Below, piece by piece: positions 1-13,403 of a stretch of 64,000 nucleotides of DNA. The translations under genes were made by a program, and so were the position numbers. The notes under the pieces are model-generated. The model was not told where the DNA came from. It saw only the letters and a list, made by a program, of their open reading frames with translations, and did no database searches. Source of the DNA: Bacteroides fragilis (GTDB lineage: Bacteria; Bacteroidota; Bacteroidia; Bacteroidales; Bacteroidaceae); contig NZ_CP018937.1 of NCBI RefSeq assembly GCF_002849695.1, positions 1,736,001 to 1,800,000 on the forward strand, given 5' to 3'. The first letter of the stretch is position 1. Each line of letters begins with the position of its first letter.

Positions 1-940
1 GCAGAGTTCTTCGACCGTTATGTGAATCTTGCATTTATTGACTATTCCAAAGTAACAGACACTACAAATAAACCGGAGAAAGAAAAGACCATCCGCCCGG
101 AACTGCCTGCGGGCTTTTTGGAAAAGCTGAAACAGATGCGTTACAGCAATCATACAATACGGGTATATACTACCTATATCGGAGATTTTCAACAGTATTT
201 TGCCGGAAGCAACCTGAAAAGGATTTCGCCTGACGAAATAAATGCCTACCTGCTTTATCTGATAGACAAGAAAAATATCTCTTCCTGCCAACAGAACCAA
301 CGTATCAACGCGATCAAGTTCTATTATGAAAAGGTGCTGGGCAACGAACGTCACTGCTACAAGGTAAACCGTGCAAAACGTGAGAAGACACTGCCGGATG
401 TTGAGCAAGGAAGAAGTGAAAGACTTTCTAACAGTAGCTAAAGAAGATTTGCGGTTTTATTGCATGTATTCGCTGTTGTACTCGGCAGGGCTTCGTATCA
501 GCGAATTGCTGAATTTAAAACCGGATGATATAAACATTTCCCGTTCACTGATACATGTGCGACAGGGAAAAGGGAAGAAAGACCGATATACGCTGCTATC
601 CAAACCGTTTATCAATAAATTGGAAGAATATAGGATAGCATATCAGCCGGAAAAGTGGCTTTTTGAACGTGAAGCCGGAGTACAATTCTCTGAAAGCATC
701 GTTTCCAAAAAACTGAAAGAGATAGCCCATGAAGCAGGAATAACAAAAAGAGTATATCCTCACTTGTTTCGCCATTCGTTCGCTACACATTTGATAGAAC
801 AAGGAACAGACTTGAAAATCATAAAAGAACTGTTGGGGCATGAAAATATTAAAACCACCGAGATGTACGTCCATATTGCAGACACTTACAAAAGCAAAAT
901 TAAAAGTCCGTTGGACGATATTTTAGAAGAAGAGATTTAA
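1..940 (+). pseudogene. Tyrosine recombinase next to the cassette array, frameshifted, 5' end outside window
   Basis: Frame 1 is open from the left edge to a stop at 441 and encodes the SAM-like core-binding domain. Frame 2 (from about 398 to 940) encodes the catalytic domain. It has all catalytic residues: Arg in GLRISELL, Lys in GKGKKDRY, His and Arg in HLFRH, His in LLGH and the Tyr nucleophile in TTEMYVHI. The C-terminal tail KIKSPLDDI resembles the SPLD tail of integron integrases. Homology passes from frame 1 (LPDV) to frame 2 (LSKEEV) at 400-403, as if two T were lost from a GTTTTG run. I see no extra helix insert of the kind typical of classical IntI between the Lys and HxxR motifs, so it is Xer-like in build. 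It is the only candidate here for moving the cassettes. The break could be real or a sequence error. Confidence 0.85.
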
Positions 941-954
941 TAAAATACTTATAG

Positions 955-1001
955 AAAATAACAGCGAAACATTAAATGACCGCTGTTAGCATAACGTTAG
1001 C
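955..1001 (+). repeat. attI-like site with hairpin, downstream of the recombinase
   Basis: TAACAGCG (959-966) and CGCTGTTA (981-988) form a perfect 8-bp stem around a 14-base loop. Eight bases later comes ACGTTAGC, where the first cassette begins (TTA at 997). Bases 955-994 are repeated exactly at 55370-55409. The place, directly between recombinase and first cassette, is that of an integron attI site; the function is inferred. Confidence 0.7.
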
Positions 1002-1021
1002 ATTGAAAATAAACTGAGAAA

Positions 1022-1531
1022 ATGATCCAATTAAAAAGAAAAGAAGCTATTAGGTTAATAAAATACCACCATCTTCTCCATTTATCAAATGAAGAAAAGG
1101 CAGATATAATATCTGATTATAATTCCAAAGTAAAAGTATATGATAAAAGCAGCAGTTTGGATTTTAAAGAGATTCAAAAATATAGTAATAATAAGTATAT
1201 ACTTGATCGATTTTCATATAATGATTTAGTTACTAATGAATACATTGAAGAGATTTTCTTTGCTTTATATAATATTCATATTGAGTTAATTGATAAGCCG
1301 GTGTCATTATTAGGATATTGTTGTCCATGTTGTAACTATAAAGTATATAGAAAAATGGAAATATTTGATATTTGCCCTGTTTGTATGTGGGAAAATACAA
1401 ATACTGGAGAAGATCAATATAGTGCCCCTAATCGTTCTACATTAAAAGAGTATCGACAAGCGTTTTTAAATAATCAAAAGTTAGAGCCTAATAATCTTAA
1501 ATATATACAGTATGAATTAGGGAGTATTTAA
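1022..1531 (+). CDS. Cassette 1: CPCC cysteine-rich domain protein, 169 aa
   Basis: The C-terminal half carries a CCPCC cluster, a CPVCMWE motif about 22 residues later and a GEDQYSAPNRSTLKEYR stretch, which is the pattern of the CPCC cysteine-rich family (probable zinc binding). The first ~95 residues are not recognised. CPCC domains are often encoded near polymorphic toxin immunity genes, so an immunity or accessory role is possible but inferred. It starts 25 bases after the cassette edge at 997 with an A-rich leader. The gene is AT-rich compared with the chromosomal genes further right. Confidence 0.8.
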   Translation: MIQLKRKEAIRLIKYHHLLHLSNEEKADIISDYNSKVKVYDKSSSLDFKEIQKYSNNKYILDRFSYNDLVTNEYIEEIFFALYNIHIELIDKPVSLLGYCCPCCNYKVYRKMEIFDICPVCMWENTNTGEDQYSAPNRSTLKEYRQAFLNNQKLEPNNLKYIQYELGSI

Positions 1532-1588
1532 TTGGGGAACAATATATCAAAATCAACAATAAAAACATCATGATAAAGTAAAAATAAA

Positions 1589-1639
1589 TGCTAACAAACG
1601 GCTTAACTTCCGAAAAGTTAGTTAGCCGATAGACATTAT
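1589..1639 (+). repeat. attC-like site 1 (ends cassette 1)
   Basis: Starts GCTAACAAACGG, ends GACATTATC; arms CGGCTTAACTT and its imperfect complement around TCCGAAAAG form the stem. AATGCTAA before and in the core pairs with TTAGCATT at cassette start 997. Confidence 0.85.
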
Positions 1640-1658
1640 CAACCAATAAACAAAGAAT

Positions 1659-2255
1659 ATGGAGCTGAAAAAATGTTTTCTATATAAAGCAATCCCCACC
1701 ACCAATACAGACAAACCGTTTTTTGGTTGGATTGGTGGTTGTCCACCTGTATGTTTTGATAAAGAGGATACTTCTTTAATGGGTTATCTTTTTTATATGA
1801 CTATCATATTACCTAATAAGCAAAGACAGATTTCTATTTTTCTACCTGAAGATTGGGAAATCTATCTAAATAAGGATAGGTATCCCGATTGTGCAATCAA
1901 GGTAATTGAACATGATGTTTCATTGGAAGGTATAACAATAGAGCTACAACATCCAGTAATTATAAAGCATGATATTATTCTTTACAAAGAGTGTTGTGAT
2001 ACTGAAACCGAAAGTGAACCCTTCTTGGTAAAGCTGGGTGGTAAACCTCGCTTAGTTCAAAATAAAAAAATCTATTATGATCAGTTGGAAAAAGATGGCT
2101 ATTCTTTTTATATGCAAATAGACGAAGACGGCTATCCACTTGATGGACTATTGAAAGGCAATTATCCTTTCTGCTATGGTGCATTATATCTGTATGCCAA
2201 GCAAAACAATAGCATTGTAGAAAACATTATTGCTGGTTATTGGCAATCGACATAA
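1659..2255 (+). CDS. Cassette 2: YwqG/DUF1963-like protein, 198 aa
   Basis: No signal peptide or membrane segment is visible. The second half has LVKLGGKPRLVQ, about residue 122, followed by a DGYSFYMQIDEDGY stretch. This recalls the GGxPxxxQ core of the DUF1963/YwqG family, whose members occur among SMI1-type and immunity genes. The N-terminal half with FFGWIGGCPP is not recognised. Function is unknown; family assignment is tentative. The ATG at 1659 lies 24 bases after the cassette edge. Confidence 0.75.
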   Translation: MELKKCFLYKAIPTTNTDKPFFGWIGGCPPVCFDKEDTSLMGYLFYMTIILPNKQRQISIFLPEDWEIYLNKDRYPDCAIKVIEHDVSLEGITIELQHPVIIKHDIILYKECCDTETESEPFLVKLGGKPRLVQNKKIYYDQLEKDGYSFYMQIDEDGYPLDGLLKGNYPFCYGALYLYAKQNNSIVENIIAGYWQST

Positions 2256-2269
2256 AAAGAAAAAAGGTT

Positions 2270-2321
2270 GATAACACGTGACTAAATCTCTTTTAAGAGT
2301 GATTAGCCACATTTCATTATC
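2270..2321 (+). repeat. attC-like site 2
   Basis: Starts GATAACACGTGACTAAATC, ends TTTCATTATC; GTGACTAA and TGATTAGCCAC make the stem. GGTTGATAA pairs over 9 bases with TTATCAACC at the cassette edge 1635. Confidence 0.85.
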
Positions 2322-2361
2322 GACTATAAACAAAAAATAGAATTGTAAAATATAAGTAAAT

Positions 2362-2922
2362 ATGAAATACTATGAATTAGCAGACTATTACAAAAGAGAT
2401 GTAAACTTTGTATTTGATGAAAAAAAGAATGATTTAGATTACTTTGTTTTAAGTGAAGGTCATCCCGTTATCTACAATCATCCTATCTATTATACTATTG
2501 ATAAGATTGATTCTTACATTGATAAATATGATTTTTTGCCAACATTAGGTCCTTCACTTGTTAGCAAAAAATTTAGAAACACTTTTTCTTTTCTTGAAAA
2601 TTCTGAATTACAATTTTTTAATGCTGTTATAACAGATAAAAAGGGGAATCAGATTAATGACTTTTTTGCATTAAATATAACTAATACATTAGAATGCTTG
2701 GATTTGAATAAATCTGTAATAGAAACAACAAGATATGGTATTAGAACAATGAAGAAAATCTTTTTCTTAACGGATGCTCTTAATAAATTTTCGATAGTAC
2801 GTATGAAAGAACATAAATCTTATATTGTTGTTACGGAAGAGTTTAAGAATATATGTGAAAAATCCAATCTGAAAGGTATAAGATTTTTAAGTGAAGGAGA
2901 TTCAATTTATACAAATGTATAA
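2362..2922 (+). CDS. Cassette 3: Imm11/DUF1629-like immunity protein, 186 aa
   Basis: A soluble protein with a motif LGPSLVSKKFRNTFSF near residue 60 followed by ELQFFNAVITDKKG. This matches the general build of the Imm11 (DUF1629) immunity family, in which a conserved Ser-x-x-Phe region precedes a 'lqf-pv-i' strand. Such proteins neutralise toxins of secretion systems in neighbouring cells. No toxin partner lies beside it, which fits an orphan immunity gene carried on a cassette. The family call is by eye. Confidence 0.75.
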   Translation: MKYYELADYYKRDVNFVFDEKKNDLDYFVLSEGHPVIYNHPIYYTIDKIDSYIDKYDFLPTLGPSLVSKKFRNTFSFLENSELQFFNAVITDKKGNQINDFFALNITNTLECLDLNKSVIETTRYGIRTMKKIFFLTDALNKFSIVRMKEHKSYIVVTEEFKNICEKSNLKGIRFLSEGDSIYTNV

Positions 2923-2929
2923 ATTGGTC

Positions 2930-2983
2930 GATAACAAGCGGCTCAACCTCCCCTAAAAGGTCGGTTAGCCACCAAACATTATC
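2930..2983 (+). repeat. attC-like site 3
   Basis: Starts GATAACAAGCGGCTCAACC, ends AAACATTATC; CGGCTCAACC and GGTCGGTTAGCC are the arms. GTCGATAA pairs over 8 bases with TTATCGAC at the cassette edge 2317. Confidence 0.85.
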
Positions 2984-3002
2984 CACCAAGAAAAAAAATG
3001 AA

Positions 3003-3344
3003 ATGGTTAAATTAGTTGATTATACAGAATATCTTTCAAGAGGAGCAATCCTAAAATGTAAGGGTAAATACCCTTATGAAGATACCGTATATTTTATGGT
3101 AGCGGAGCAAATAGGTGTGCAAGCATATCAATTATGGACTATATCAGGATATTATGCAGGTATGATATTGCACAAATTACCTTCAGATGCTAATTATGAA
3201 ACTTATGCAGTGAGCACTAAATGGCTTGTAGGAAATTGGCATGAATGGGGATATATTGATTGTCCTCTTGAAGATGTTTGGGTAGTTGAAAATGAAGAAC
3301 TATTTTCCAATCTTAATATCAAAAAGTTAAATAGCTCTTACTAA
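3003..3344 (+). CDS. Cassette 4: Imm45-like immunity protein, 113 aa
   Basis: The sequence begins KLVDYTEYLSRGAILKC, then KYPYEDTVYFMV, then SGYYAGMIL and STKWLVGNWHEWGY. These blocks and the length agree with the Imm45 family of immunity proteins (RG-F-C, wPyEd, GY-AG, stsWL--NW). It would bind and block a delivered toxin; the toxin is not in the window. The ATG at 3003 is used because the ATG at 2998 meets a stop after five codons. Confidence 0.8.
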   Translation: MVKLVDYTEYLSRGAILKCKGKYPYEDTVYFMVAEQIGVQAYQLWTISGYYAGMILHKLPSDANYETYAVSTKWLVGNWHEWGYIDCPLEDVWVVENEELFSNLNIKKLNSSY

Positions 3345-3353
3345 ATAGTGGTG

Positions 3354-3405
3354 GATAACAAGCGGATTAATCTCCATAAGGGTTGATTATCCGCCGGACA
3401 TTATG
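3354..3405 (+). repeat. attC-like site 4
   Basis: Starts GATAACAAGCGGATTAATC, ends GGACATTATG; GCGGAT pairs with ATCCGC and AATC with GATT. TGGTGGATAA pairs over 10 bases with TTATCCACCA at the cassette edge 2979. Confidence 0.85.
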
Positions 3406-3427
3406 TGCAACTTAAAAATGGAAAAAT

Positions 3428-3796
3428 ATGAATGATTCAGAATTTGTTAATTCATTGAAAAGAGAAATATTAAATGACTTATATAATCGCTATTTCAACA
3501 CTCTAAATACATTGCCGGTGAGCGGTGGTGATGAGCGATGGAATGATAGTAAAGAATTATATAGTCATTTGAATGAAAAACAACGGCAAGAGCTAAAATC
3601 TTTTGTCCGTTTAATCATGACTGATACATTATCTAATGTTTTTGCCAAACTGGATAACGTATCATCTTTTGCCAACCAAGAAGGATTTTTTGAATTAACC
3701 TTGAACGGTAAAATAATAAGTGGAGATTTGCAGGAAATATTTCTTATGCAAATAGAAGAAAACAATGAGGCACATAACAATCACCTAAACTGCTAA
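3428..3796 (+). CDS. Cassette 5: small acidic helical protein of unknown function, 122 aa
   Basis: Not recognised with confidence. It is rich in Leu, Glu and Lys with a probable helical N-terminal half; the segment DERWNDSKELYSHLNEKQ followed by a long helix resembles small proteins found among immunity genes in Bacteroidales. The last eight codons and the TAA stop (3794-3796) lie inside attC-like site 5, so the site supplies the C-terminus. ATG at 3428 is 27 bases after the cassette edge. Confidence 0.7.
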   Translation: MNDSEFVNSLKREILNDLYNRYFNTLNTLPVSGGDERWNDSKELYSHLNEKQRQELKSFVRLIMTDTLSNVFAKLDNVSSFANQEGFFELTLNGKIISGDLQEIFLMQIEENNEAHNNHLNC

Positions 3797-3821
3797 ACGC
3801 AGTTAGTTGAATCCCATTATC
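3773..3821 (+). repeat. attC-like site 5
   Basis: Starts CATAACAATCACC, ends TCCCATTATC; AACTGCTAAACGCAGTT is the inner stem-loop. It is the only site with a CATAA start, and the cassette edge at 3401 has the matching TTATG; 8 bases pair (GCACATAA with TTATGTGC). Confidence 0.85.
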
Positions 3822-3830
3822 ATTTCTACA

Positions 3831-4364
3831 ATGAAAAAACGAAGAGGACTTAAAAAATATTATCGGAAACTGCATAAGCAGGATGTAAACCGATATTGGT
3901 GTGAAGCCTTATCTGATAATGAGGCTTGGTTTAACCTCGCGCACGAACATTTTGATTGGTCGGGCTATGGCAATAGATCATGGAGAGAGCATAAAGAGCA
4001 TTTGGATATGCTATTCAAGCATTTTTCAATTATGGAAAATCGGCTTAAAGGTATAGAACGCCCAATCCAGATGTTTGCGGTCTTGCATATAAATGACAGC
4101 GAACAAGATGCCCTTTATTTGCACACTCCCAATCCGCATACCGATTACCCAATCAATTTCGTCAAGAACGGGTGTACTGTTGGCATAAATTGCCATGATA
4201 TACCAATCACTGATTATCTCAAAGATTTGGAAAAACAAGGATACACAGTACTAACATCACCAAGAGAGACCAATAACAATTATCTTGGCTCTTTTGTGAT
4301 TTTCAAAAATGGTGTGGGCGAAAGCCTGATTGTAGAAAATGATAACAAACAGCAAACCGACTGA
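3831..4364 (+). CDS. Cassette 6: unknown soluble protein, 177 aa
   Basis: Starts at the first ATG, 14 bases after the cassette edge; an upstream TTG in frame lies inside the recombination site and is unlikely. The N-terminus is very basic (KKRRGLKKYYRKLHK). The middle has a cluster of aromatic and His residues (HEHFDWSGYGNRSW). I do not recognise a family. The stop TGA (4362-4364) sits within attC-like site 6, so the last residues DNKQQTD are encoded by the recombination site and recur at the end of the unrelated cassette 14 protein. Confidence 0.7.
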   Translation: MKKRRGLKKYYRKLHKQDVNRYWCEALSDNEAWFNLAHEHFDWSGYGNRSWREHKEHLDMLFKHFSIMENRLKGIERPIQMFAVLHINDSEQDALYLHTPNPHTDYPINFVKNGCTVGINCHDIPITDYLKDLEKQGYTVLTSPRETNNNYLGSFVIFKNGVGESLIVENDNKQQTD

Positions 4365-4392
4365 ACAAAGCGGAACGCTGTCAAACGTTATT
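4341..4392 (+). repeat. attC-like site 6 (CGTTA variant)
   Basis: Starts GATAACAAACAGC, ends AAACGTTATT. It is the only array site ending CGTTA, as at the attI-like site; the others have CATTA or a decayed end. ACAGC and GCTGT are the arms. AAATGATAA pairs over 9 bases with TTATCATTT at 3817. Nearly the same sequence as sites 9 and 14. Confidence 0.85.
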
Positions 4393-4427
4393 TGCCAGAA
4401 TAAATTAACAATAAAAAAAGAAAAACA

Positions 4428-4883
4428 ATGATTAGATATATAGAGAAAGGCGACATATTCCGCATCGAGGGTGTGAGCAGTTATGCACACGGGTGTAATT
4501 GCGCTGGTGCTATGGGTAAAGGCATTGCCGTACAGTTCAAGGATAAATATCCTGATATGTATATTGAATATAAACATTTGTGCAAAGAAGATAAGTTTTG
4601 CCCCGGAGATGTATTTGATTATAATTATGGCAACGGACATATTTATAATCTTGGAACTCAAGCAACGTGGCGAACACGAGCTAAAAAAGAGTATATCACA
4701 AAGGCATTGATAAAGATGCTTGAGTTTGCCAATCGTGATAACGTAACGGCAATAGCTTTACCTGCGATCGGTGCTGGATTAGGCGGATTAAAATGGAATG
4801 ATGTAAAAGCTATTTTGGAAAAAGTTTCAAATGATTATCCGAATGTTGATTTGTATATAGTTGAAACTTATCAAAGTGAATAG
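4428..4883 (+). CDS. Cassette 7: macro domain protein, 151 aa
   Basis: A single macro domain over the whole length: EKGDIF (adenine-binding Asp), HGCNCAGAMGKGIA (ribose and phosphate loop), and LPAIGAGLGGLKW (second phosphate loop). Macro domains bind or remove ADP-ribose; the build resembles the DarG/ALC1-like group that reverses ADP-ribosylation. A likely role is protection against an ADP-ribosylating toxin, which fits the immunity-like cargo of neighbouring cassettes. Catalysis is inferred. Leader of 40 bases from the cassette edge to ATG. Confidence 0.9.
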   Translation: MIRYIEKGDIFRIEGVSSYAHGCNCAGAMGKGIAVQFKDKYPDMYIEYKHLCKEDKFCPGDVFDYNYGNGHIYNLGTQATWRTRAKKEYITKALIKMLEFANRDNVTAIALPAIGAGLGGLKWNDVKAILEKVSNDYPNVDLYIVETYQSE

Positions 4884-4888
4884 AGGCA

Positions 4889-4939
4889 GATAACAAGCGG
4901 ATTAATCTCCTGAAAGTCGATTATCCGTCGGACATTAGC
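4889..4939 (+). repeat. attC-like site 7
   Basis: Starts GATAACAAGCGGATTAATC, ends GGACATTAGC; GCGGAT/ATCCGT and AATC/GATT arms. GGCAGATAA pairs with TTATTTGCC at 4388 with one mismatch in 9. Confidence 0.85.
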
Positions 4940-4951
4940 AACCCCAAATAA

Positions 4952-5584
4952 ATGGAAATGATTGAAGAAACTTTAAGAACTGAATTTGAAGCATTGAAAA
5001 ATGATTTTGAAACCATAAGACAACAAATAGAAAGCGATGTTGTCAGGACTGAGTTGTATAAGGGCGAGTTTTATGAACTTACCCCATATTCCTATCAGCG
5101 TAATGGTTTCAGACAAGGAAAACCTGTAAAGCGTCCTGATACAGTAAAAAGCACCAAAAATCTTTGTATTTACGGGTTTAATAATCAAAATCAAATAGTC
5201 GAAGTTAAGGTTGGTTGTTCGATTGAAAATCAGTTTTATCACACTTTCCTATATTATACAGACAATTTTGTGAAAAGTATTCTATATAATAATGGTAAAC
5301 GTTTGATAAATGTACGCCATTACTTTTTCGAGGGCGGAAAGTTGAAACGGTTACAGTCATGTGGTAGTCGTGGTAGCCGTGAAGAGAATTACATCTATAA
5401 TGAAAATGCCTTGACACATATTGAAATTAAACAATATGATATTGATGGCAAAAACGGTGGTGACTTAATTCACAGATTCCAATATCAGGACGATGGGAGT
5501 TTAGAAACTATTACCCAATCATTTCCAAATGGATATTCTGAAATAATCTATAAAACGAAAAAAAGGCTGCTAACAAACAGATGA
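4952..5584 (+). CDS. Cassette 8: unknown protein with YD/MORN-like strands, 210 aa
   Basis: The N-terminal ~40 residues look helical, followed by repeated strand units such as NLCIYGFNNQNQIVEVKV and FEGGKLKRLQSCG, similar to YD or Rhs-like antiparallel repeats. The overall plan resembles the protein of cassette 15 (helical start, RQGKPVKRP versus KGRRLKQKPLKKG, then strand repeats), so the two may be one family. No catalytic motif is seen. The stop TGA (5582-5584) is inside attC-like site 8. Confidence 0.7.
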   Translation: MEMIEETLRTEFEALKNDFETIRQQIESDVVRTELYKGEFYELTPYSYQRNGFRQGKPVKRPDTVKSTKNLCIYGFNNQNQIVEVKVGCSIENQFYHTFLYYTDNFVKSILYNNGKRLINVRHYFFEGGKLKRLQSCGSRGSREENYIYNENALTHIEIKQYDIDGKNGGDLIHRFQYQDDGSLETITQSFPNGYSEIIYKTKKRLLTNR

Positions 5585-5618
5585 AACATTTAAGGCTGTT
5601 TATCTGCCGGACATTATC
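5569..5618 (+). repeat. attC-like site 8
   Basis: Starts GCTAACAAACAGATGAAACA, ends GGACATTATC; CAGATGAAACA and TGTTTATCTG are the arms. GGCTGCTAA pairs with TTAGCAACC at 4935, 8 of 9. Confidence 0.85.
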
Positions 5619-5644
5619 GGTCAAACAATAAAAAGAAAAAGTTT

Positions 5645-6151
5645 ATGAAACTACGAGAAGAAATAGAACCTAAAATTATTCAAATAGAAAAAATATGTCC
5701 GCAAATATCGAGGTTACTACGTGGGTATGATAGTGAAAAGGACAATAAATGTTTGAATATAATAAAAAAAATTTCTGAATTAACTCACAAAGTTATTACT
5801 AAAGATATTCTTTCTGAATATATGGAAGATGACTCTATTTGTATGGTTGCTCTTGGGCTTTCAATAGGGACTCCACCATTACTCCATATTCCATTATCGT
5901 GTGACGAACTTCTTGAAATCATACAAAGAATACATTCTAAGAATAATGTCGAATATAAAGTTAAGGCTTTTCCTGAAGATGAACTTTGGTGGGTTCTGTC
6001 ACACGATTATTATGTTCCGTTATTGGAAAAAAACATGGAATTATCAGAACCTTCGCTTATTCGTGAAATGCTATATCAAGAAACTGTATTTGACAGTTTG
6101 CGGTATAAGCCGGAAGAAGTACTTGAAAAAATTTTAGGTGTAATGAAATAG
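5645..6151 (+). CDS. Cassette 9: unknown protein with a broken homologue at 55852, 168 aa
   Basis: Mostly helical, soluble and without a recognised family; blocks include SELTHKVITKDILSEY and LSCDELLEIIQRIHS. A decayed copy lies at 55852-56382 in the remnant cassette region and matches along the length (ELTHKVIT to ILTGKHIT, LLEIIQRI to LFGIIQRI, YVPLLEKNMEL to a VPFSLLEKNLNL stretch). It resembles small immunity-like proteins in size and acidity only. ATG at 5645 is 31 bases after the cassette edge. Confidence 0.75.
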   Translation: MKLREEIEPKIIQIEKICPQISRLLRGYDSEKDNKCLNIIKKISELTHKVITKDILSEYMEDDSICMVALGLSIGTPPLLHIPLSCDELLEIIQRIHSKNNVEYKVKAFPEDELWWVLSHDYYVPLLEKNMELSEPSLIREMLYQETVFDSLRYKPEEVLEKILGVMK

Positions 6152-6154
6152 ACC

Positions 6155-6205
6155 GATAACAAACAGCAAACCGACTGAATAAGCGGAACGCTGTCAAACA
6201 TTAGC
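6155..6205 (+). repeat. attC-like site 9
   Basis: Starts GATAACAAACAGC, ends AAACATTAGC; ACAGC and GCTGT arms, almost identical to sites 6 and 14. GACCGATAA pairs over 9 bases with TTATCGGTC at 5614. Confidence 0.85.
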
Positions 6206-6228
6206 AACTTGGAAATAAAAAAGAAAAA

Positions 6229-6855
6229 ATGAACAATAATTCAATTCAAACTAATCAAATGTGTCCTGTTTGCCATAGCTTTATGATCGAAGCTCCCAAT
6301 AGCGTTTGCTCTGTTTGCCATAGTAAACACAAAAAGATGTATGAGCATAGTAGTTTTATGAGCAATGAATGGACTAAAATTTCTCAAAATGGGCTAAGTG
6401 CAGTAGAGGTTCTAATTGATATATTGGATAATATTGATGCAGATACAGGTACGGATGCAGATATAATTTGGCATAGACGTAGAGTATATTTCATGAAAGA
6501 TATGGTAGAGCAACTTGGTTTAAGATATTTTGCGCCTGCAACGCCTCAACAAATATTTGATTTTACTCAATCTGCAATAGATTTTTGGAATGATAAAATC
6601 TCTCATAGAGAGGCAAAAGATAAATATGATAGCATGGCATGAATCCTTCAAAAGAAAGATATTACACAGTGGGATTCCAAAAGTTTTCTTCTTTGGATGA
6701 TTCAGGAAAGGGAAGATTTTGATTGGATTTGGGATCAATGGTTTGAGTGTTTACATAACTGCATACCAGAACGATGTAATGACAATATTTGGATCAGTCT
6801 TTTAGCCCAACATTTTTCAGAAGAAATAAATGCTTGGGTTAATGATGACAATTAA
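6229..6855 (+). pseudogene. Cassette 10: zinc-ribbon protein split by an in-frame TGA
   Basis: The first 137 codons end at TGA 6640-6642. The same frame then stays open for 70 more codons to TAA 6853-6855, just before attC-like site 10, so the gene was about 208 codons long. The N-terminus has CPVCHSF and CSVCHSK, a probable zinc ribbon. The later part (KSFLLWMIQEREDFDWIWD) looks like normal coding sequence. An ATG at 6697 could start a short separate product. A nonsense mutation is the simplest reading; the truncated first part may still be made. Confidence 0.7.
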
Positions 6856-6859
6856 AGTT

Positions 6860-6907
6860 GCTAACAAACAGCACACCGCCTAAAACGGCACGCTGCCGAA
6901 CATTATC
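6860..6907 (+). repeat. attC-like site 10
   Basis: Starts GCTAACAAACAGCACACCG, ends GAACATTATC. AAGTTGCTAA pairs over 10 bases with TTAGCAACTT at cassette edge 6201. Confidence 0.85.
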
Positions 6908-6922
6908 AATAAAAAGTTGAGT

Positions 6923-7777
6923 ATGCGAATACATGATTCTGAAACAAATAAATGCAAGAAAAAATTAATGCTTGAACCAAAAGAGTTTGAACAAGGTATA
7001 GAATATGCCCTTGCGAATGATTGTGACGGTTTACAAGTTGACACATGGAATATTGTTGATACAATAATGGATTTCAGGCTTTTCGAGAAAGTGGCTAATC
7101 AAATTGTATTCCTATCGTTTATGAATGTTAATACTACAAATGTATCCAATTTTGAATATATATACTCTCTTGAAAGATTAAAAACATTCTATTGTCAGAA
7201 AGTGGATTTGCATATAGATTTTGCTCGTTTTTCATCACTTCGGAATATTGGAATCTTTTATAATAAGAACTTTCTAAATTTGGATAAGCTGGAACAATTA
7301 GAGAGTGCGGTTATCAGCAAATTTGCAGGGAAAGATATGTTGTTGTTTTCCGGTTGGAAATCTATAAAAATATTACATATCTATCAATCACAAATAGAAT
7401 GTTTACGAGGCATAAAAGATTTGGTTCGGATTGATACCTTAGTTTTTGGGCATAATAGAAAGCTAACCGATATTGGCTGTATCAACCTTTTGGATTATGC
7501 CGGAGAAGTTTCATTTGAAAAGAATAGCAGACTACATGATTATTCTATGCTGGCGAATAACCGGAATATTCATAATCTTTTCATTTCGGATTTGGACGAT
7601 TTGGAATTTATTAAAAGCATGAAATCCTTGTCATCATTCAAGTTTTGGAATTGCAAAAATGGAGATTTATCTCCCTTGTTGGCAAACCCTATATTGAAAG
7701 AAGTGTACTTCACACCAAACAAGAAACATTATTCGCATACATTAGAGCAGATTAAAATATTGATAACAAGCGAATGA
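6923..7777 (+). CDS. Cassette 11: leucine-rich-repeat-like protein, 284 aa
   Basis: Repeating units with regularly spaced Leu, Ile and Phe (LERLKTFYCQKVDLHI, FSSLRNIGIFYNKNF, LEQLESAVISKFAGK, WKSIKILHIYQSQIE, LVRIDTLVFGHN) indicate an irregular leucine-rich solenoid. LRR proteins of this size occur as immunity proteins or binding scaffolds; the partner is unknown. ATG at 6923 is preferred to TTG at 6917. The TGA stop (7775-7777) lies within site 11. Confidence 0.75.
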   Translation: MRIHDSETNKCKKKLMLEPKEFEQGIEYALANDCDGLQVDTWNIVDTIMDFRLFEKVANQIVFLSFMNVNTTNVSNFEYIYSLERLKTFYCQKVDLHIDFARFSSLRNIGIFYNKNFLNLDKLEQLESAVISKFAGKDMLLFSGWKSIKILHIYQSQIECLRGIKDLVRIDTLVFGHNRKLTDIGCINLLDYAGEVSFEKNSRLHDYSMLANNRNIHNLFISDLDDLEFIKSMKSLSSFKFWNCKNGDLSPLLANPILKEVYFTPNKKHYSHTLEQIKILITSE

Positions 7778-7813
7778 ACTGCCCTAACGGTCAGTTATTC
7801 ACAAACCATTAGC
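7762..7813 (+). repeat. attC-like site 11
   Basis: Starts GATAACAAGCGAATGAACTG, ends AAACCATTAGC; GAATGAACTG and CAGTTATTC are the arms. TATTGATAA pairs over 9 bases with TTATCAATA at 6903. Confidence 0.85.
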
Positions 7814-7834
7814 ATCAAAAGAAAGAAATTTTAT

Positions 7835-8191
7835 ATGAAGAATTTAGAGTTGAGAAAACCATATCAGTTACAAGAAATTATAGATTCAATATCTAAAGAT
7901 ATTCTTGATAATGGTTTTACGGATGCAAATTATTGTTTGTATTCCAATGAGGATATAGCAAAACTTGAATTATTGTGTTATTTGGAACTTTATCCAATAG
8001 TAACCGATGAAGATGAAGAACTTTATCCGGATTTTGTAAAAGAGAAATCTTTAAAGTTGTTCTATTATGGTCAGCAATTTGAAGATGTATTGATAAACGT
8101 TTCAAATCAAAAAGGTTCAGCTTCAATTAATGACTATATCGAAGGGCTGAATTATTACATGAAACATGATACGTTTATGGATTTTGAATGA
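7835..8191 (+). CDS. Cassette 12: small acidic protein, possibly DUF7716-like, 118 aa
   Basis: Strongly acidic and soluble. Order: helix, a LELLCYLELYPIVTDEDEELYPDF segment, then LFYYGQQFEDVLINV and a C-terminal NYYMKHDTFMDFE. The last block (NYY--D-F-DF) recalls a family of small immunity-associated proteins, but the assignment is weak. The stop lies just before attC-like site 12. Confidence 0.7.
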   Translation: MKNLELRKPYQLQEIIDSISKDILDNGFTDANYCLYSNEDIAKLELLCYLELYPIVTDEDEELYPDFVKEKSLKLFYYGQQFEDVLINVSNQKGSASINDYIEGLNYYMKHDTFMDFE

Positions 8192-8192
8192 T

Positions 8193-8242
8193 GCTAACAA
8201 GCACCTGTGCCACCTAACGGCGGCAAGCTGCATCCCATTAGC
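8193..8242 (+). repeat. attC-like site 12
   Basis: Starts GCTAACAAGCACCTGTGCC, ends ATCCCATTAGC. Same centre type as site 17. TGATGCTAA pairs over 9 bases with TTAGCATCA at 7809. Confidence 0.85.
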
Positions 8243-8275
8243 AATAAAGTTAAACAAATAAAATATCATTAAATC

Positions 8276-8704
8276 ATGCTAAGTAATAAAGTGATAGACT
8301 ATTTGAATAAACAAGGTGTATATTCGGAAAAAGAAGATAAAGCATATAAAAAGGCTTTGATAGATTTAGGAATTGATTTAAATAGTGATTTTGCATTCTT
8401 TTGTCTTCATACAACGGAAACAAGGTTTAAAGGGCGAGTTGGTAGTATAGATAATATATGTTGGTTTCTTGTATATTCAACTTATGCTCGAAGAGCAGAA
8501 GCTCTGCAGAATAATTTGGAACTACCGAAAGAATATCTTCCTTTAGATAATTTTGAGGCGGAAGGCGGTTTTTTCTATAACCGTAATACAGGAGAAGTTC
8601 TCGAAATTGAATTGGGAGAAAAACTAATCAATTTTCAGAATGGAAAGTTGTCTCCACAATGGAAAGACTTCAATTCTTTTTTAGAATGGTATTTGGGATT
8701 ATAA
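8276..8704 (+). CDS. Cassette 13: SUKH (SMI1/KNR4)-like immunity protein, 142 aa
   Basis: The C-terminal half holds LPKEYLPLDNFEAEGGFFYN, then a short strand turn and DFNSFLEWYLG. The pattern 'YlpLd-fe-EGgffYn ... F--FLewyl' is typical of the SUKH superfamily, in which most members are immunity proteins against nuclease and other toxins. No paired toxin gene is present. ATG at 8276 is 38 bases after the cassette edge. Confidence 0.8.
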   Translation: MLSNKVIDYLNKQGVYSEKEDKAYKKALIDLGIDLNSDFAFFCLHTTETRFKGRVGSIDNICWFLVYSTYARRAEALQNNLELPKEYLPLDNFEAEGGFFYNRNTGEVLEIELGEKLINFQNGKLSPQWKDFNSFLEWYLGL

Positions 8705-8713
8705 TAAGTTATT

Positions 8714-8765
8714 GCTAACAAGCGAATGAACCACCCTAACGATCAGTTATTCACAACCCATTATC
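8714..8765 (+). repeat. attC-like site 13
   Basis: Starts GCTAACAAGCGAATGAACC, ends AACCCATTATC; GAATGAAC and CAGTTATTC arms. TTATTGCTAA pairs over 10 bases with TTAGCAATAA at 8238. Confidence 0.85.
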
Positions 8766-8776
8766 GGTTTAATAAA

Positions 8777-9076
8777 ATGGAAAAGGAAGGAGTAATATAT
8801 TGGCTCAAACCAGAAGAGGGCGGATTGAAAAATCTGCCTACTTATGAGTTGTGTTATGCTGTTACTGTTTTACCGCAAGTGGAGCCTTCAGCATGGAGCA
8901 TTAAAATGTTTATACTTGAGCCTGATAAATATGTAAGTGATTGCTTGGTCGCTTTTCTGGTTGATCATGCACCTCATGAAGTTTTAAATACCATAGAATC
9001 CGTAGATGTATATGCAGGCAATAAAAAAGTAGCTACTATAATATTAAAAACCGATAACAAACAGCAGACTGACTGA
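8777..9076 (+). CDS. Cassette 14: small beta-barrel-like protein, 99 aa
   Basis: Start chosen at ATG 8777, 16 bases after the cassette edge; the longer frame from 8726 would read through site 13. The motif YWLKPEEGGLKNLP near the start, followed by strands (AWSIKMFIL, KVATIIL), resembles stand-alone domains like the C-terminal barrel of elongation factor Tu ('-a-I-fl--eEGGRk-P'). Function unknown. The final residues DNKQQTD and the TGA stop come from attC-like site 14, as in cassette 6. Confidence 0.7.
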   Translation: MEKEGVIYWLKPEEGGLKNLPTYELCYAVTVLPQVEPSAWSIKMFILEPDKYVSDCLVAFLVDHAPHEVLNTIESVDVYAGNKKVATIILKTDNKQQTD

Positions 9077-9103
9077 ATAAGCGGAACGCTGTCAAACATT
9101 AAC
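9053..9103 (+). repeat. attC-like site 14
   Basis: Starts GATAACAAACAGCAGACTG, ends AAACATTAAC. AAACCGATAA pairs over 10 bases with TTATCGGTTT at 8761. Close copy of sites 6 and 9. Confidence 0.85.
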
Positions 9104-9121
9104 AGTATAAAGAAATGAAAA

Positions 9122-9841
9122 ATGAAAAATTATTATATAGCTTTCGATTCTTTGATAAAAGAAAGAAATGATGTATTGAAACACATGGTAGAACATCAAA
9201 CAGAAATAGTAAATCATGTGAAAACAGCTAAATGCTATGAGCTATATAGTAGTTCAGCCGATGATTTAGGTATTCTTACTCCCAGTTTAATCAGAGATAA
9301 AATTACAAGTGGGTATCATAAAGGTAGGAGACTCAAACAGAAACCTTTGAAAAAAGGATATGTTTCATATGAATTTGATAATACAATGAGGCCTTTAAGA
9401 ATACGTAAGTATAATAAAGAAGGCCATTTAGATGTAACTTTTTATTTTATTGATTACAATGATGCATTATTTGCCATACCATGTGGAGGGAATAACCCCT
9501 TATATATCTATCCTACTGATTTACACAAAATAGAATATAGAGAAGGCCAAATATGGAGATATTCAACCATTACTTCTAATTCTTTATGGCAGGAAGTATA
9601 TGATTTTGCAAAGAACGATTATGTAGAATGCAAGAACTGCTACTATGTGTCTAATTTGGTTGGAAGTGACAAAAGTGTCCTTGAGGAACAAAATAGTTCC
9701 CCTCTACAAACATGGTTGGCAAAAATTTATATGATTGAAAATAAGGTTTCAAGATTACTGTATTATAATTTTTCTAATAATAAAGAAGAATTGATATATG
9801 AATATGGAAAAAAACATACCGATAACTCCTATCACTCGTGA
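9122..9841 (+). CDS. Cassette 15: unknown YD-like strand protein, 239 aa
   Basis: N-terminal helix (DSLIKERNDVLKHMVEHQ), then strand-rich repeats (YVSYEFDNTMRPLRIRKYN, HLDVTFYFIDYND). It shares the plan of the cassette 8 protein. It overlaps the next small reading frame by 38 bases. This cassette is the only one of the first 19 whose edge does not match its own site, so it may be a fusion of two cassettes with the inner site lost. Function unknown. Confidence 0.7.
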   Translation: MKNYYIAFDSLIKERNDVLKHMVEHQTEIVNHVKTAKCYELYSSSADDLGILTPSLIRDKITSGYHKGRRLKQKPLKKGYVSYEFDNTMRPLRIRKYNKEGHLDVTFYFIDYNDALFAIPCGGNNPLYIYPTDLHKIEYREGQIWRYSTITSNSLWQEVYDFAKNDYVECKNCYYVSNLVGSDKSVLEEQNSSPLQTWLAKIYMIENKVSRLLYYNFSNNKEELIYEYGKKHTDNSYHS

Positions 9842-9950
9842 AGAAATGGTACGAAATCAGTATTCTTACTCAACGGTATGGTTTCCTATTGATTTAGAAA
9901 ACAAAATAATAGAAAAACTGGCTACTAACAAGTGTATCAATCGCCCCTGA
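9804..9950 (+). CDS. Cassette 15, second gene: 48-aa protein
   Basis: ATG at 9804 lies inside the end of the preceding gene in another frame; the frame stays open to TGA 9948-9950, inside attC-like site 15. Sequence includes PITREEMVRNQYSYSTVWFP, a plausible small folded peptide. It fills the otherwise empty 83 bases before the site. No family recognised; it may instead be the remnant of a second cassette's gene. Confidence 0.45.
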   Translation: MEKNIPITPITREEMVRNQYSYSTVWFPIDLENKIIEKLATNKCINRP

Positions 9951-9977
9951 AAGGTCGATTATCCGCCAAACATTACC
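9924..9977 (+). repeat. attC-like site 15 (rule-breaking)
   Basis: Starts ACTAACAAGTGTATCAATC, ends AAACATTACC; AATC and GATT plus outer arms remain. GGCTACTAA does not pair with TTAACAGTA at 9099. Confidence 0.8.
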
Positions 9978-10000
9978 AATAATGCCATAAAATAATAAAA

Positions 10001-10531
10001 ATGAATTTGAAAGATAAAACGTTAGATATTACAATTAAAGACTACTTGTTGTCAGGTGGCATTAAACATATTAATCCATATGCCGATTTTAAAATAAATG
10101 AATTTAAAAATATGGCAACAGAAATATGGACAACACCTGAGTCAGATTCAATGATTATTTCGATAAACATAAACAAAGTGACAACTTTTGAGATTGTATA
10201 TGATAATAAAGATCATTATTATGTACACGATTCTTTAAATTTCAATATCGGGTTATTAAGAAATTCCCCCAAGTATGTACATAGATTAGGATTGTTTTAC
10301 GCTAAAGAGCTTGAAAAATCAGAATACATGAATAGCCTAAAAATTGTCGGTGAAGTATCAGACCAAGAGGAAAAGGTTTTATTCTTGAGCAATGGAGTTA
10401 ATTTGCATTTTCTAAAAAGTGATAAAACAGATGATTATTTAATCATAAAAATCGTCCCTGATGGAGAAGAATACAGGAGTTCTATTAGGAAAATTTTTAG
10501 GGAAGTTAATCTATCGGTAACAAACGGATGA
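10001..10531 (+). CDS. Cassette 16: unknown soluble protein, 176 aa
   Basis: No motif recognised. Alternating strands and helices, acidic and Asn-rich, with strand pairs such as DSMIISININKVTTFEIVYD and KVLFLSNGVNLHFL. Size and charge resemble immunity proteins but this is not evidence of function. The last codons (SVTNG) and the TGA stop at 10529-10531 fall in attC-like site 16. ATG is 28 bases after the cassette edge. Confidence 0.7.
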   Translation: MNLKDKTLDITIKDYLLSGGIKHINPYADFKINEFKNMATEIWTTPESDSMIISININKVTTFEIVYDNKDHYYVHDSLNFNIGLLRNSPKYVHRLGLFYAKELEKSEYMNSLKIVGEVSDQEEKVLFLSNGVNLHFLKSDKTDDYLIIKIVPDGEEYRSSIRKIFREVNLSVTNG

Positions 10532-10567
10532 ATTGCTCTAATGATCAATTATCCGCCAAACATTATA
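10516..10567 (+). repeat. attC-like site 16
   Basis: Starts GGTAACAAACGGATGAATTG, ends AAACATTATA; CGGAT and ATCCG, AATTG and CAATT arms. TATCGGTAA pairs with TTACCAATA at 9973, 8 of 9. Confidence 0.85.
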
Positions 10568-10590
10568 AGCAACAGAAAAACGGAAACAAT

Positions 10591-11058
10591 ATGATAAAAT
10601 ACATTTCGGGAGATATATTGCAAAGCAAAGATGAGTACATAGCGCAAGGTGTGGCTGTTGGCTCACAAGAAGGATTAGGAACTGGGCTTGCCTTTAAGCT
10701 ATCAAGTCAATTCCCTGAAATCCAAAAACTCTTTAAGAAGTACACACGAAACACCAAGTTTCAAGCTGGTGATATGTTTATAGGAGAAATCAAAGGTTTC
10801 TCTCCGGGTATAATCTACATCGCTACACAACCGGATATGTATCATGCAGAACTTACATATCTGAATAAAGGCTTGAAACGCTTGAAAAAAGTATGCGAAA
10901 GCAGAGGTATTAAAACTGTGTCGCTCCCGAAAATAGGTGCAGGTTTGGGTAAGTTGGATTGGAATAGTGAGGTCAAACCTTTGCTTGAAAGCATTTTATC
11001 TGATTGTGAAACTGTATTCAATGTATATGAAGATTACAAGATTGAATACGAAAATTAG
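10591..11058 (+). CDS. Cassette 17: divergent macro domain protein, 155 aa
   Basis: Start at ATG 10591 after site 16; the longer frame from 10528 reads through the site. Macro-domain landmarks: YISGDILQ at the N-terminus, a Gly-rich loop GLGTGLAF near residue 30 and LPKIGAGLGKLDW near residue 110. Compared with cassette 7, the Asn-Cys pair before the first loop is replaced by AQGVAVGSQE, so ADP-ribose hydrolysis is less certain than binding. It is the second macro domain in the array and not a recent copy of the first. Confidence 0.85.
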   Translation: MIKYISGDILQSKDEYIAQGVAVGSQEGLGTGLAFKLSSQFPEIQKLFKKYTRNTKFQAGDMFIGEIKGFSPGIIYIATQPDMYHAELTYLNKGLKRLKKVCESRGIKTVSLPKIGAGLGKLDWNSEVKPLLESILSDCETVFNVYEDYKIEYEN

Positions 11059-11060
11059 CT

Positions 11061-11110
11061 TATAACAAGCACCTGTGCCACCTAACGGCGGCAAGCTGCA
11101 AACCATTACC
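11061..11110 (+). repeat. attC-like site 17
   Basis: Starts TATAACAAGCACCTGTGCC, ends AAACCATTACC. GCTTATAA pairs over 8 bases with TTATAAGC at 10563. Same centre type as site 12. Confidence 0.85.
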
Positions 11111-11128
11111 AATAAACAAATAATTGAA

Positions 11129-11416
11129 ATGTTAGATTTTAGCAATACAATGAATAATCATCACTTTGCTTTGAATAATGTTGAATTGAGAATATTACAA
11201 CCTGTCTTTTGGGAGTTTCATGCAAAGACAGGATTGAGTATTGATGAATATGGAGATACAAGATTGATACCTCAAAATCTTGAATTACTTATTAATTTGG
11301 CAAATGATTATATAAAGACGTTAGATAAACAATCAATGAAAATTGTAATAGAGTTTATTAAGAATTTGCGTCCTATGATAATAGATAAAAACACAATTTG
11401 GGTAAGTGGAGATTGA
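11129..11416 (+). CDS. Cassette 18: small unknown protein, 95 aa
   Basis: Starts at ATG 11129, 23 bases after the cassette edge; the frame from 11075 begins inside site 17 and is rejected. The protein reads helix-rich, with NNVELRILQPVFWEF, a NLELLINLANDYIKTL helix and a C-terminal helix. No family recognised. It ends 6 bases before site 18. Confidence 0.7.
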   Translation: MLDFSNTMNNHHFALNNVELRILQPVFWEFHAKTGLSIDEYGDTRLIPQNLELLINLANDYIKTLDKQSMKIVIEFIKNLRPMIIDKNTIWVSGD

Positions 11417-11422
11417 AATATT

Positions 11423-11474
11423 GGTAACAAGAGAATGAACTGCCTTAACGGTCAGTTATTCACAAACCATTATC
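11423..11474 (+). repeat. attC-like site 18
   Basis: Starts GGTAACAAGAGAATGAACTG, ends AAACCATTATC; GAATGAACTG and CAGTTATTC arms. TATTGGTAA pairs over 9 bases with TTACCAATA at 11106. Confidence 0.85.
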
Positions 11475-11492
11475 TGCATAAAAAAACAAAAT

Positions 11493-12383
11493 ATGAATGA
11501 TAGGTTATTCAAAATATTAAAGAAAGTGTATTTCAAAAAGAAATACATCAAAGATGAAAAAGGCTATCTCCGTGAAATTGATTGCGGAGATAAGTTTGAT
11601 TGTGATACAAAGACAATTCATTATGCAACAAATAACTTAACTCCTGCCGAATATGCTTATCTTATAGAGTCTGGTTATCCTGTAAATGAGGTTGTCCATT
11701 TAACACACGACCAATGTATTGAAAAATACAAGTTCGTTTTGCAGAACGAAAATATAAGCCTAAGAAGTTGTTTGTCTACCTTTGTTTGTGGATTTGGAAG
11801 TTTTCCAAGGGGCAGACAGCCGATTCTAAGTTATTTGTTTGCAAGAGCCGTTCCTATCCACAATTTTGTTGGAGATGTGTGCTGTCCGATTTGCTCAATT
11901 AAGGTAAATAACTGGTTGCAACGTGGAGAAGAAATTTTTAGGTTATATTATGGCTATGCGTGGAATGAAGGATGGGACGCTTATGTAATAGACTTGGAAG
12001 AATTTTCCCAATTGCCACCTTGTGAACCGACTGAAAATGACATTACGGTTTTCCGCACTGTTATTGATTACATTCGCAATGCTCCAGCAGAAGAAACATC
12101 GGGTAAGTTGGAACAGAGAATAAGAGTGGCAAAGATTGTTCCCGGTTATGAAAAATATCGTTTTCGAGGTCAACTTATGGTACTTGCAGAACTTGGAATC
12201 ATGCCAAACTCTTATATAAAGCCTCTATTTGAGGGCTTTACACCGTTTGAAGAAAGATGTCATGTTAGTGATAAAGCTACAACCAATTTCAGGTCTGATA
12301 TAATCTTGCCGCTTTCCGGATGGCGTGGGAGTAATCCTATAAATGAGGAACGGCTCAATGAGTTATTTGGAAATATTATGTAA
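11493..12383 (+). CDS. Cassette 19: unknown Cys-containing protein, 296 aa
   Basis: The longest cassette gene. The N-terminus is basic (KKVYFKKKYIKDEKGYLREIDCGDKF); the middle has DVCCPICSIKVN, one possible zinc-binding pair, in an FVGD..CC context; the C-terminal part is helical and contains KYRFRGQLMVLAELGI. I do not recognise the family. Because it is not immunity-sized it shows that cargo is not limited to one type. ATG is 23 bases after the cassette edge. Confidence 0.75.
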   Translation: MNDRLFKILKKVYFKKKYIKDEKGYLREIDCGDKFDCDTKTIHYATNNLTPAEYAYLIESGYPVNEVVHLTHDQCIEKYKFVLQNENISLRSCLSTFVCGFGSFPRGRQPILSYLFARAVPIHNFVGDVCCPICSIKVNNWLQRGEEIFRLYYGYAWNEGWDAYVIDLEEFSQLPPCEPTENDITVFRTVIDYIRNAPAEETSGKLEQRIRVAKIVPGYEKYRFRGQLMVLAELGIMPNSYIKPLFEGFTPFEERCHVSDKATTNFRSDIILPLSGWRGSNPINEERLNELFGNIM

Positions 12384-12390
12384 CAATACA

Positions 12391-12441
12391 GATAACAAAC
12401 GGATCAATCTCCCCAAAGTCGATTATCCGCCAGACATTACC
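12391..12441 (+). repeat. attC-like site 19
   Basis: Starts GATAACAAACGGATCAATC, ends AGACATTACC; CGGAT/ATCCG and AATC/GATT arms. ATACAGATAA pairs with TTATCTGCAT at 11470, 9 of 10. Last site that obeys the rule. Confidence 0.85.
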
Positions 12442-12455
12442 AACAGAGTAAAAAA

Positions 12456-12887
12456 ATGAAAGTATATAGAATAGCAATAAATATGATTAAGCAAACCCAG
12501 ATTTTTAAATTCATAATCCCTATTGTAGTATTCATTCTATTGTATGCTGTCTCAACAATTAGAAACAACAATGTAAGAAAGGATGGCATATATTCTATAG
12601 TAACTCTTGTCAAATACGGTTCTGCTTATAGAGGGCAAAGTGCAAAATATGAATTTATATACAATAAGACTTTATATGAAGGAAGTTTTTTTATATCATT
12701 TGCCGAGAGTAAAAATACTCCAATCGGAACCCGTTACTTTGTGACATTCTTAGCCAAAGCCCCCGACCGACATCTTATATTAGACAGCGTACCATCTTGG
12801 TTTACTCTAAAAGCACCGGATAAAGGATGGAAAACATTACCTACACAAAAACAACTACGAATAATGATGAAAGATAGCTCGAATTAA
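12456..12887 (+). CDS. Cassette 20: single-pass membrane protein, 143 aa
   Basis: One membrane segment at about residues 18-35 (FIIPIVVFILLYAVS), then a soluble domain ending LKAPDKGWKTLPT. The C-terminal part matches the product of the minus-strand gene at 16811-17356 (PTWVLSPPKKGWKQYP), so a cassette gene has a relative outside the array. The protein is probably anchored in the inner membrane with the domain facing out. Function unknown. Confidence 0.75.
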   Translation: MKVYRIAINMIKQTQIFKFIIPIVVFILLYAVSTIRNNNVRKDGIYSIVTLVKYGSAYRGQSAKYEFIYNKTLYEGSFFISFAESKNTPIGTRYFVTFLAKAPDRHLILDSVPSWFTLKAPDKGWKTLPTQKQLRIMMKDSSN

Positions 12888-12889
12888 AA

Positions 12890-12909
12890 TGCTGCCACCA
12901 GACATTAAC
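12890..12909 (+). repeat. attC-like site 20, right half only
   Basis: Only the right part GCTGCCACCAGACATTAAC remains, directly after the stop of cassette 20; there is no TAACAA arm. The left half has been deleted, so this unit could no longer fold as a site. Confidence 0.65.
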
Positions 12910-12930
12910 TTGATAATAAATAAACGAAAA

Positions 12931-13035
12931 ATGAAACAGAAATACTATATAATCAAACTCTTATTGAAAATATGGTTTGGAATATTATGTATTAGTCTAT
13001 TGTGTACCACGGGTATTCTTTGGCTAAAGACTTAA
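12931..13035 (+). CDS. Cassette 21, first gene: 34-aa membrane peptide
   Basis: ATG at 12931, 22 bases after the half site, with an AAACGAAAA leader; stop TAA at 13033-13035. The peptide is basic at the start (MKQKYYIIKLLLK) and then one hydrophobic helix (WFGILCISLLCTTGILWL). It may be a small membrane protein or a shortened copy of a longer one. It precedes the next membrane gene by 21 bases. Confidence 0.45.
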   Translation: MKQKYYIIKLLLKIWFGILCISLLCTTGILWLKT

Positions 13036-13056
13036 AATATAAAACCTGTACCAGAT

Positions 13057-13356: not shown

Positions 13357-13403
13357 AGAATATATATGATAAAAATCAGAGTATAAGATTGAAACACATA
13401 ACG

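Follow-up and report, generated by a model that had tools for sequence, protein, structure and literature searches.

Recombinase-associated acquired interbacterial defence (rAID), a feature of the Bacteroidales, is said to have been described by Ross et al. in 2019. In the accessible portions of a 2025 preprint (PMC12247911), the mechanism of rAID biogenesis is presented as an active research area, and the arrays are described by a predicted tyrosine recombinase, co-oriented short genes and conserved intergenic motifs, the working criterion being a recombinase upstream of at least two co-directional genes of <41% guanine plus cytosine (GC). The words integron, attC, palindrom- and hairpin are absent from its main text. 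With regard to integrons, the accessible part of PMC2727003 states that most cassettes pair with themselves over 9-11 consecutive bases, while that of PMC9668308 presents the IntI-specific domain, around patch III, as the defining domain, necessary for integron-mediated recombination. For the Bacteroidetes proper, the section of the IntegronFinder 2.0 report consulted names one complete integron, in Salinibacter ruber, and makes no mention there of clusters of attC sites lacking an integrase (CALIN). Here we analyse a 64,000-nucleotide stretch of Bacteroides fragilis DNA (NZ_CP018937.1, positions 1,736,001 to 1,800,000; the whole stretch is referred to as the window), which probably holds a rAID-type array built of integron-style cassettes, captured by folding-based recombination with a recombinase of a different lineage.

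The window opens inside a tyrosine recombinase gene, which is followed by short co-oriented genes parted by palindromic sites of about 57 bases. The layout comprises 20 cassettes on the + strand, from 997 to 13351, each running from TTA to CA. When the first 14 bases of a cassette were compared with the 14 bases preceding its own palindrome core, an uninterrupted complementary run of 8-10 bases from TTA was found in 14 of the first 19 cassettes (1-6, 9-14, 17 and 18), and four others (7, 8, 16 and 19) paired with one mismatch. An earlier note on this DNA had claimed pairing over 8-10 bases in 18 of these 19, a total that we recover, although its split into 13 perfect and five one-mismatch cassettes becomes 14 and four on recounting. 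Over positions 4-10 of all 20 cassettes, 112 of 140 own-end positions match. Re-dealing the ends at random, the check which that note had proposed, gave a mean of 62.0 (standard deviation 5.7), and the observed total was reached in none of 20,000 re-dealings. The head of the next cassette gives 57 matches in the same 140 positions, pairing over TTA and staying near chance beyond it, and positions 11-14 lie at background level in the window (14/80). Since the own end so far exceeds the neighbour's head, the pairing joins the two ends of one cassette and does not span a chromosomal site, as had been proposed; equal complementarity between the ends of different cassettes, named in advance as the refuting outcome, did not occur. 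The own-end complementarity is confirmed as a real property of these cassettes.

The pairing extends to other arrays. A covariance model built from the 20 window sites, all of which it rematched, found sites within the genus in 18 of 99 genomes, a count that includes the genome holding the window, and at a stricter threshold in 19 of 95. Twenty stretches were fetched first and ten more later; of the 31 scanned with the window, 22 gave cassettes. For 133 cassettes from 20 other stretches, not deduplicated, own-end pairing at positions 4-9 was 76, 73, 77, 81, 79 and 59%, against 38, 36, 26, 44, 44 and 29% with the next head. A separate regular-expression detector, run over the 31 stretches with identical ends entered a single time, gave 120 distinct cassettes, with own-end values of 88, 84, 89, 90, 84 and 63%; from position 10 on, pairing is near background (28% vs 23%), stopping sharply after position 9. 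At least 8 of the 9 bases pair in 93 of the 120 (79 of 103 without the window), a level that the next head reaches in 3 of 120 and other combinations in 510 of 14,280, so that the extension to other arrays suggested by the earlier note holds. The arms themselves are variable: among the 93 well-paired cassettes, 66 different six-base stretches follow TTA, positions 4-6 (84-89% paired) take 30 different triplets, 75 cassettes carry a purine at position 7, and 88 have a pyrimidine at position 8.

How completely the sites were detected bears on these counts. The regular-expression detector returned 202 sites from the 31 stretches, compared with 295 covariance-model matches, weak ones included; missed sites dilute own-end pairing and cannot create it. 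With increasing distance from site to site, pairing falls from 66 of 77 cassettes (<700 bases) to 20 of 26 (700-999 bases) and 7 of 17 (1000-1300 bases), and lower pairing in long cassettes is expected if some of them contain an undetected site. Of 17 cassettes in three named plasmid records (Bacteroides ovatus, Parabacteroides distasonis and the unannotated Phocaeicola massiliensis), 12 pair, and the five misses all span at least 1487 bases between sites; this count uses 20 of 22 model matches, one end-truncated match and one on the opposite strand being omitted.

The sites carry more than paired ends. Their inner stem covaries, with 42 cells showing both-sided changes vs 16 in shuffles (0 of 500 shuffles reached the observed value). 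Among the best 150 of the 295 model matches, one unpaired base stands on the R'' side in 116, read on the bottom strand as C in 46, G in 26, A in 24 and T in 20, and CATTA, with both halves required, is complete in 146 of these 150 aligned sites. Predicted bottom-strand folds average -12.5 kcal/mol if the head is the cassette's own, and -8.6 kcal/mol if it is the neighbour's or that of another cassette; among the 120 cassettes, the own head gives the stronger fold in 103 and the neighbour's head in 11, the two being equal in 6. Own ends pair, which is what makes the own-head fold stronger; the energies express this pairing in another form and are no independent evidence. The stronger fold fits a recombination site that would be completed in the excised circle, and in this sense agrees with the earlier note's claim that the foldable site existed in such a circle, as an inference rather than a demonstration. 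An Rfam search over 900-14200 (E up to 1) matched no family.

Related cassettes standing in different places provide a view of the cassette edges. In 39 homologous cassette pairs, both edges lie within five bases of the junction in 8 and one edge does so in 14, while 14 pairs extend into a similar neighbour and 3 stop short. The relative of cassette 13 (8238-8760) in locus L049 is 82% identical, with edges at -2/+3 around CA|TTA, and that of cassette 3 (2317-2978) in L061 has edges at -2/+8. In L154 a relative of cassette 18 (11106-11469), which itself lies deep in the window's array, stands first behind the attI-like site; it is 93% identical and its left edge falls exactly at TTA, while on the right the likeness extends 76 bases into the next cassette. 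Because pairing starts at TTA and some of these edges lie at the junction, a crossover at CA|TTA, as the earlier note had placed it, fits the data, the exact phosphate being beyond their reach. Identical cassettes also occur twice in one array (L065 at 2087 and 7805; L153 at 2192 and 12858, and again at 2883 and 13549), as if captured or duplicated twice.

Between the recombinase stop and the first cassette, at 956-996 (+), lies a putative attI-like stretch, AATAACAGC...GCTGTTAGCATAACG, which ends at the first TTA. A stretch of the form AATAACAGC...GCTGATA... follows the recombinase stop and precedes the first TTA in 15 loci, the window included, and leads into 12 different heads; it comes in two main variants plus a looser one in L063. 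This likeness was judged by eye across loci that partly share a recombinase and are not all independent, and the junction with the first cassette at 997 was likewise read by eye. As far as sequence can tell, then, an attI-like site lies beside the recombinase gene, as in integrons.

The likeness to integrons goes further. The covarying stem and bulge reproduce the R''-L''-L'-R' layout of attC with its extrahelical base on the R'' side, the cassette edge falls at TTA, and the ends of one cassette pair with each other. This last property is ordinary for integrons and already published. Our own control with IntI loci used 77 of the 80 fetched, L104, L113 and L135 being excluded for matches that begin right at the contig edge, and yielded 146 candidate sites and 76 cassettes in 35 loci; 66 of the cassettes are distinct, and of these 39 match all six TTRRRY bases. 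As the detection rule partly fixes positions 1-6, only position 7 onwards counts as evidence, and there (positions 7-11) the 66 cassettes pair with their own end at 71, 59, 53, 45 and 44%, against 21, 36, 42, 23 and 29% with the next head (z 9.9, 0/2000). The arm in the window is not longer than the known one, since both the published 9-11 bases (PMC2727003, in its accessible part) and our control reach as far or farther, and the earlier note's assertion of an arm exceeding the 7 bases known for attC falls.

Given such resemblance, the most serious alternative is that this is a true integron with a diverged integrase, the recombinase being an IntI without its former extra domain and the sites ordinary attC. 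The site architecture matches attC, as this would predict, and the intact recombinases of related arrays score 203-204 bits with the integron integrase model TIGR02249 (191 in a second clade). Among solved structures, compared also with the XerA/XerC recombinases (5hxy, 4a8e), the best match is XerA 5hxy at 135 bits, only narrowly over the IntI4 structure 2a3v at 133 bits. However, the TIGR02249 scores remain below the cut-off of 265, and in three intact relatives the best match is broken at profile position 178-181, at the IntI-specific stretch. The XerA model scores slightly higher (208-216 bits), though below its own cut-off of 220. In a tree of 24 rows, with long branches and few Bacteroidota among them, the recombinases of the arrays group in a clade of their own (100/99), separate from IntI, and 35 of 80 IntI loci yield 0 sites with our site model. 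The cassette heads do not carry the GTTRRRY core, reading instead TTA, three variable bases and then mostly purine-pyrimidine, with ATTA in its place; the bulged base varies, where attC has a conserved G; pairing ends sharply at position 9, where it is raised to position 11 in the IntI control; and the recombinase and the cassettes share one reading direction. We therefore regard a true integron as unlikely, and call the system integron-like rather than a proven integron. Other known systems differ too. Sites of the dif type are conserved double-stranded sequences, whereas the arms here vary while their pairing is kept. With CALIN the window shares an attC-like cluster lacking a recognisable IntI, and differs from them in having a distinct recombinase and an attI-like site.

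The window's own recombinase gene (22-940, +), whose 5' end lies outside the window, is split into two frames, 22-441 and 371-940, which meet within 371-441; relatives of the same genus, 71-74% identical to the C-terminal piece, have it in a single frame. When the two pieces were searched apart in NCBIfam, the XerA_Arch and integron integrase models matched, all below cut-off. A scan of genome contigs with the C-terminal piece found no relative. Searching 31 genomes of the family with the integron integrase model (E up to 1e-40) gave none with a match, and since the control genomes also gave none, this search is uninformative on absence. A second recombinase clade, to which L057 and L066 belong by the tree and L164 and L165 by their context, accompanies cassette sites of this kind and has another stretch ahead of its first TTA.

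A very different explanation is that the complementary ends act in RNA, the two ends of a gene's transcript, 5' leader and 3' end, pairing with each other and controlling translation or decay. The position of the head, which in 18 of 20 cassettes precedes the start codon by 14-45 bases, would suit such a role. Nevertheless, the pairing starts exactly at the cassette edge, an edge which some related cassettes share exactly, and it has the geometry of attC, while the bulge and inner stem are left unexplained, so that we consider pairing in RNA very improbable. Slightly less credible again is that the units are transposon-like and moved by a transposase, with the arms as their terminal inverted repeats. 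Two complementary ends on a unit found in several places would be expected of a transposon; yet the arms are not conserved, as the variety of six-base stretches (66 in 93) shows, the palindrome lies outside one arm, the units stand head to tail, and no transposase family was matched among the ORFs (open reading frames) scanned, which were part of those in the window. Finally, some cassettes are indeed related copies, but functionless complementarity through shared ancestry is scarcely believable, as other ends from the same and other arrays, tested for equal pairing, pair at background and duplicates with identical ends were collapsed before counting.

We thus return to cassette capture by folding-based recombination, for which the variable own-end arms, the covarying stem with its bulge, the attI-like stretch with its different first cassettes in different genomes, and the related cassettes in different places, some of them with both edges at CATTA, can be read directly from the DNA. 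Each cassette runs from TTA to CA, its first 8-9 bases complementing the bases before its own palindrome. In the excised circle, own-end pairing would complete a folded single-stranded recombination site, and a recombinase of the neighbouring type would insert the folded circle at the attI-like site beside its gene. Once integrated, the R' arm of a site would belong to the neighbouring cassette and mostly pair over TTA only, making it a poorer substrate than the circle, such that capture would be favoured over loss.

Several points weigh against this proposal. The circles, the single-stranded substrate, the choice of the bottom strand and the asymmetry of capture over loss are steps that we infer from the sequences. 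Twenty-seven of the 120 distinct cassettes fall short of 8 paired bases in 9, and distance does not account for all of them, as 11 of the 77 short cassettes (<700 bases) also fail. Both edges are not sharp in 31 of the 39 homologous pairs. Across 234 arm positions in these pairs, 21 changes are one-sided and 7 both-sided but unpaired, with three compensatory changes (both sides altered and still paired), two of which are one comparison counted twice; one further compensatory pair was seen, at 86% identity, and compensatory change between homologous cassettes is thus weakly supported. The sites have A before TTA, not the G of GTTRRRY, and the IntI-specific stretch is absent, in the aligned rows, from both the intact relatives and the window's C-terminal piece. 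The frame-split recombinase is probably inactive in this strain, so that the window's array may now be frozen. Furthermore, an order-wide scan of 295 genomes (strict filters, 18 candidates scored per genome) matched only the window's own, despite the presence of sites in the named Parabacteroides record.

The window array fits the published descriptions of rAID, with which it shares a tyrosine recombinase, co-oriented short genes of low GC, some immunity domains and intergenic motifs. The recombinase, albeit a frame-split copy, lies upstream of co-directional low-GC genes: all 20 array genes are co-oriented and below 0.41 GC (0.25-0.38). Of the 19 array ORFs scanned, six reach a Pfam cut-off, namely Imm11, Imm45, macro (twice), CPCC and DUF7716. 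Genes annotated for immunity to type VI secretion system (T6SS) toxins occur in two of the named relatives, in both cases between sites found by the same model: the B. ovatus plasmid carries a site-specific integrase followed by SMI1/KNR4, Imm26, PoNi-type and Tdi1 immunity genes, and in the P. distasonis record such an integrase is followed by Tdi1 and SMI1/KNR4 immunity genes. In the open-access literature searched, we found no statement that rAID genes are integron-style cassettes, and within that scope a cassette mechanism for rAID appears to be new. The cassette edges, own-end arms and attI-like site amount to a specific, testable mechanism by which gut Bacteroidales would collect defences against T6SS toxins. 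They also point to cassette capture through folding as a process that may dispense with the IntI-specific domain, and surveys based on IntI and GTTRRRY-like sites could overlook such arrays. The broader reading, in which rAID arrays form a second kind of integron, a XerA-like recombinase lacking the IntI domain captures single-stranded cassettes by their structure, and sites are strong in the circle and weak once integrated, such that immunity genes are gathered more easily than lost by gut Bacteroidales, is in our judgement finely balanced.

The individual cassettes, all on the + strand, are as follows. Cassette 1 (997-1635), with an own-end run of 8 bases, contains the ORF 1022-1531, encoding a Cys-rich CPCC protein (PF14206). 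Cassette 2 (1636-2316) has a run of 9, and cassette 3, introduced above, encodes Imm11 (PF07791) and has a run of 8, while cassette 4 (2979-3400) encodes Imm45 (PF15572) and reaches 10. Runs of 8 and 9 characterize cassettes 5 (3401-3816), which has a CATAA tail, and 6 (3817-4387), which is followed by the sole CG|TTA junction among the 20 sites. In both cassette 7 (4388-4934), with a DarG-like macro domain (PF01661), and cassette 8 (4935-5613), 8 of 9 bases pair with one mismatch. Thereafter come cassette 9 (5614-6200; run of 9), with relatives in L061 and L156, cassettes 10 (6201-6902; 10) and 11 (6903-7808; 9), cassette 12 (7809-8237; 9), encoding DUF7716 (PF24832), and cassettes 13 (10) and 14 (8761-9098; 10). 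Cassette 15 (9099-9972) is the lone failure among the first 19, with a run of 3. Cassette 16 (9973-10562) pairs at 8 of 9 with one mismatch, cassette 17 (10563-11105; macro domain, PF01661) has a run of 8, cassette 18 one of 9, and cassette 19 (11470-12436) pairs at 9 of 10 with one mismatch. Own-end pairing is absent from cassette 20 (12437-13351), inside which an apparent half-deleted palindromic site was noticed by eye at 12880-12906, so that two cassettes may be combined in it. Macro-domain proteins resembling the DarG antitoxin are encoded twice in this one array, in separate cassettes, at 4428-4883 and 10528-11058.

The first of the 20 attC-like sites lies at 1586-1642 (+), as placed by the alignment of all 20, with the covarying stem and a match to the covariance model. 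Sites 2-11 end at 2323, 2985, 3407, 3823, 4394, 4941, 5620, 6207, 6909 and 7815, and sites 12-20 at 8244, 8767, 9105, 9979, 10569, 11112, 11476, 12443 and 13358, again on the + strand. Beyond them, a degenerate last site at 13996-14039 (+) scores 21.7 bits with the covariance model of the 20 window sites. The stretch 13350-13420, past the last good site, resembles by eye one upstream of the recombinase in the same genome (L001, ~805-868). Elsewhere in the window, at 35610-43933, consecutive ORFs of 764, 764 and 769 amino acids, together with two of 224 amino acids, have the look of duplicated units, judged by length and spacing only.

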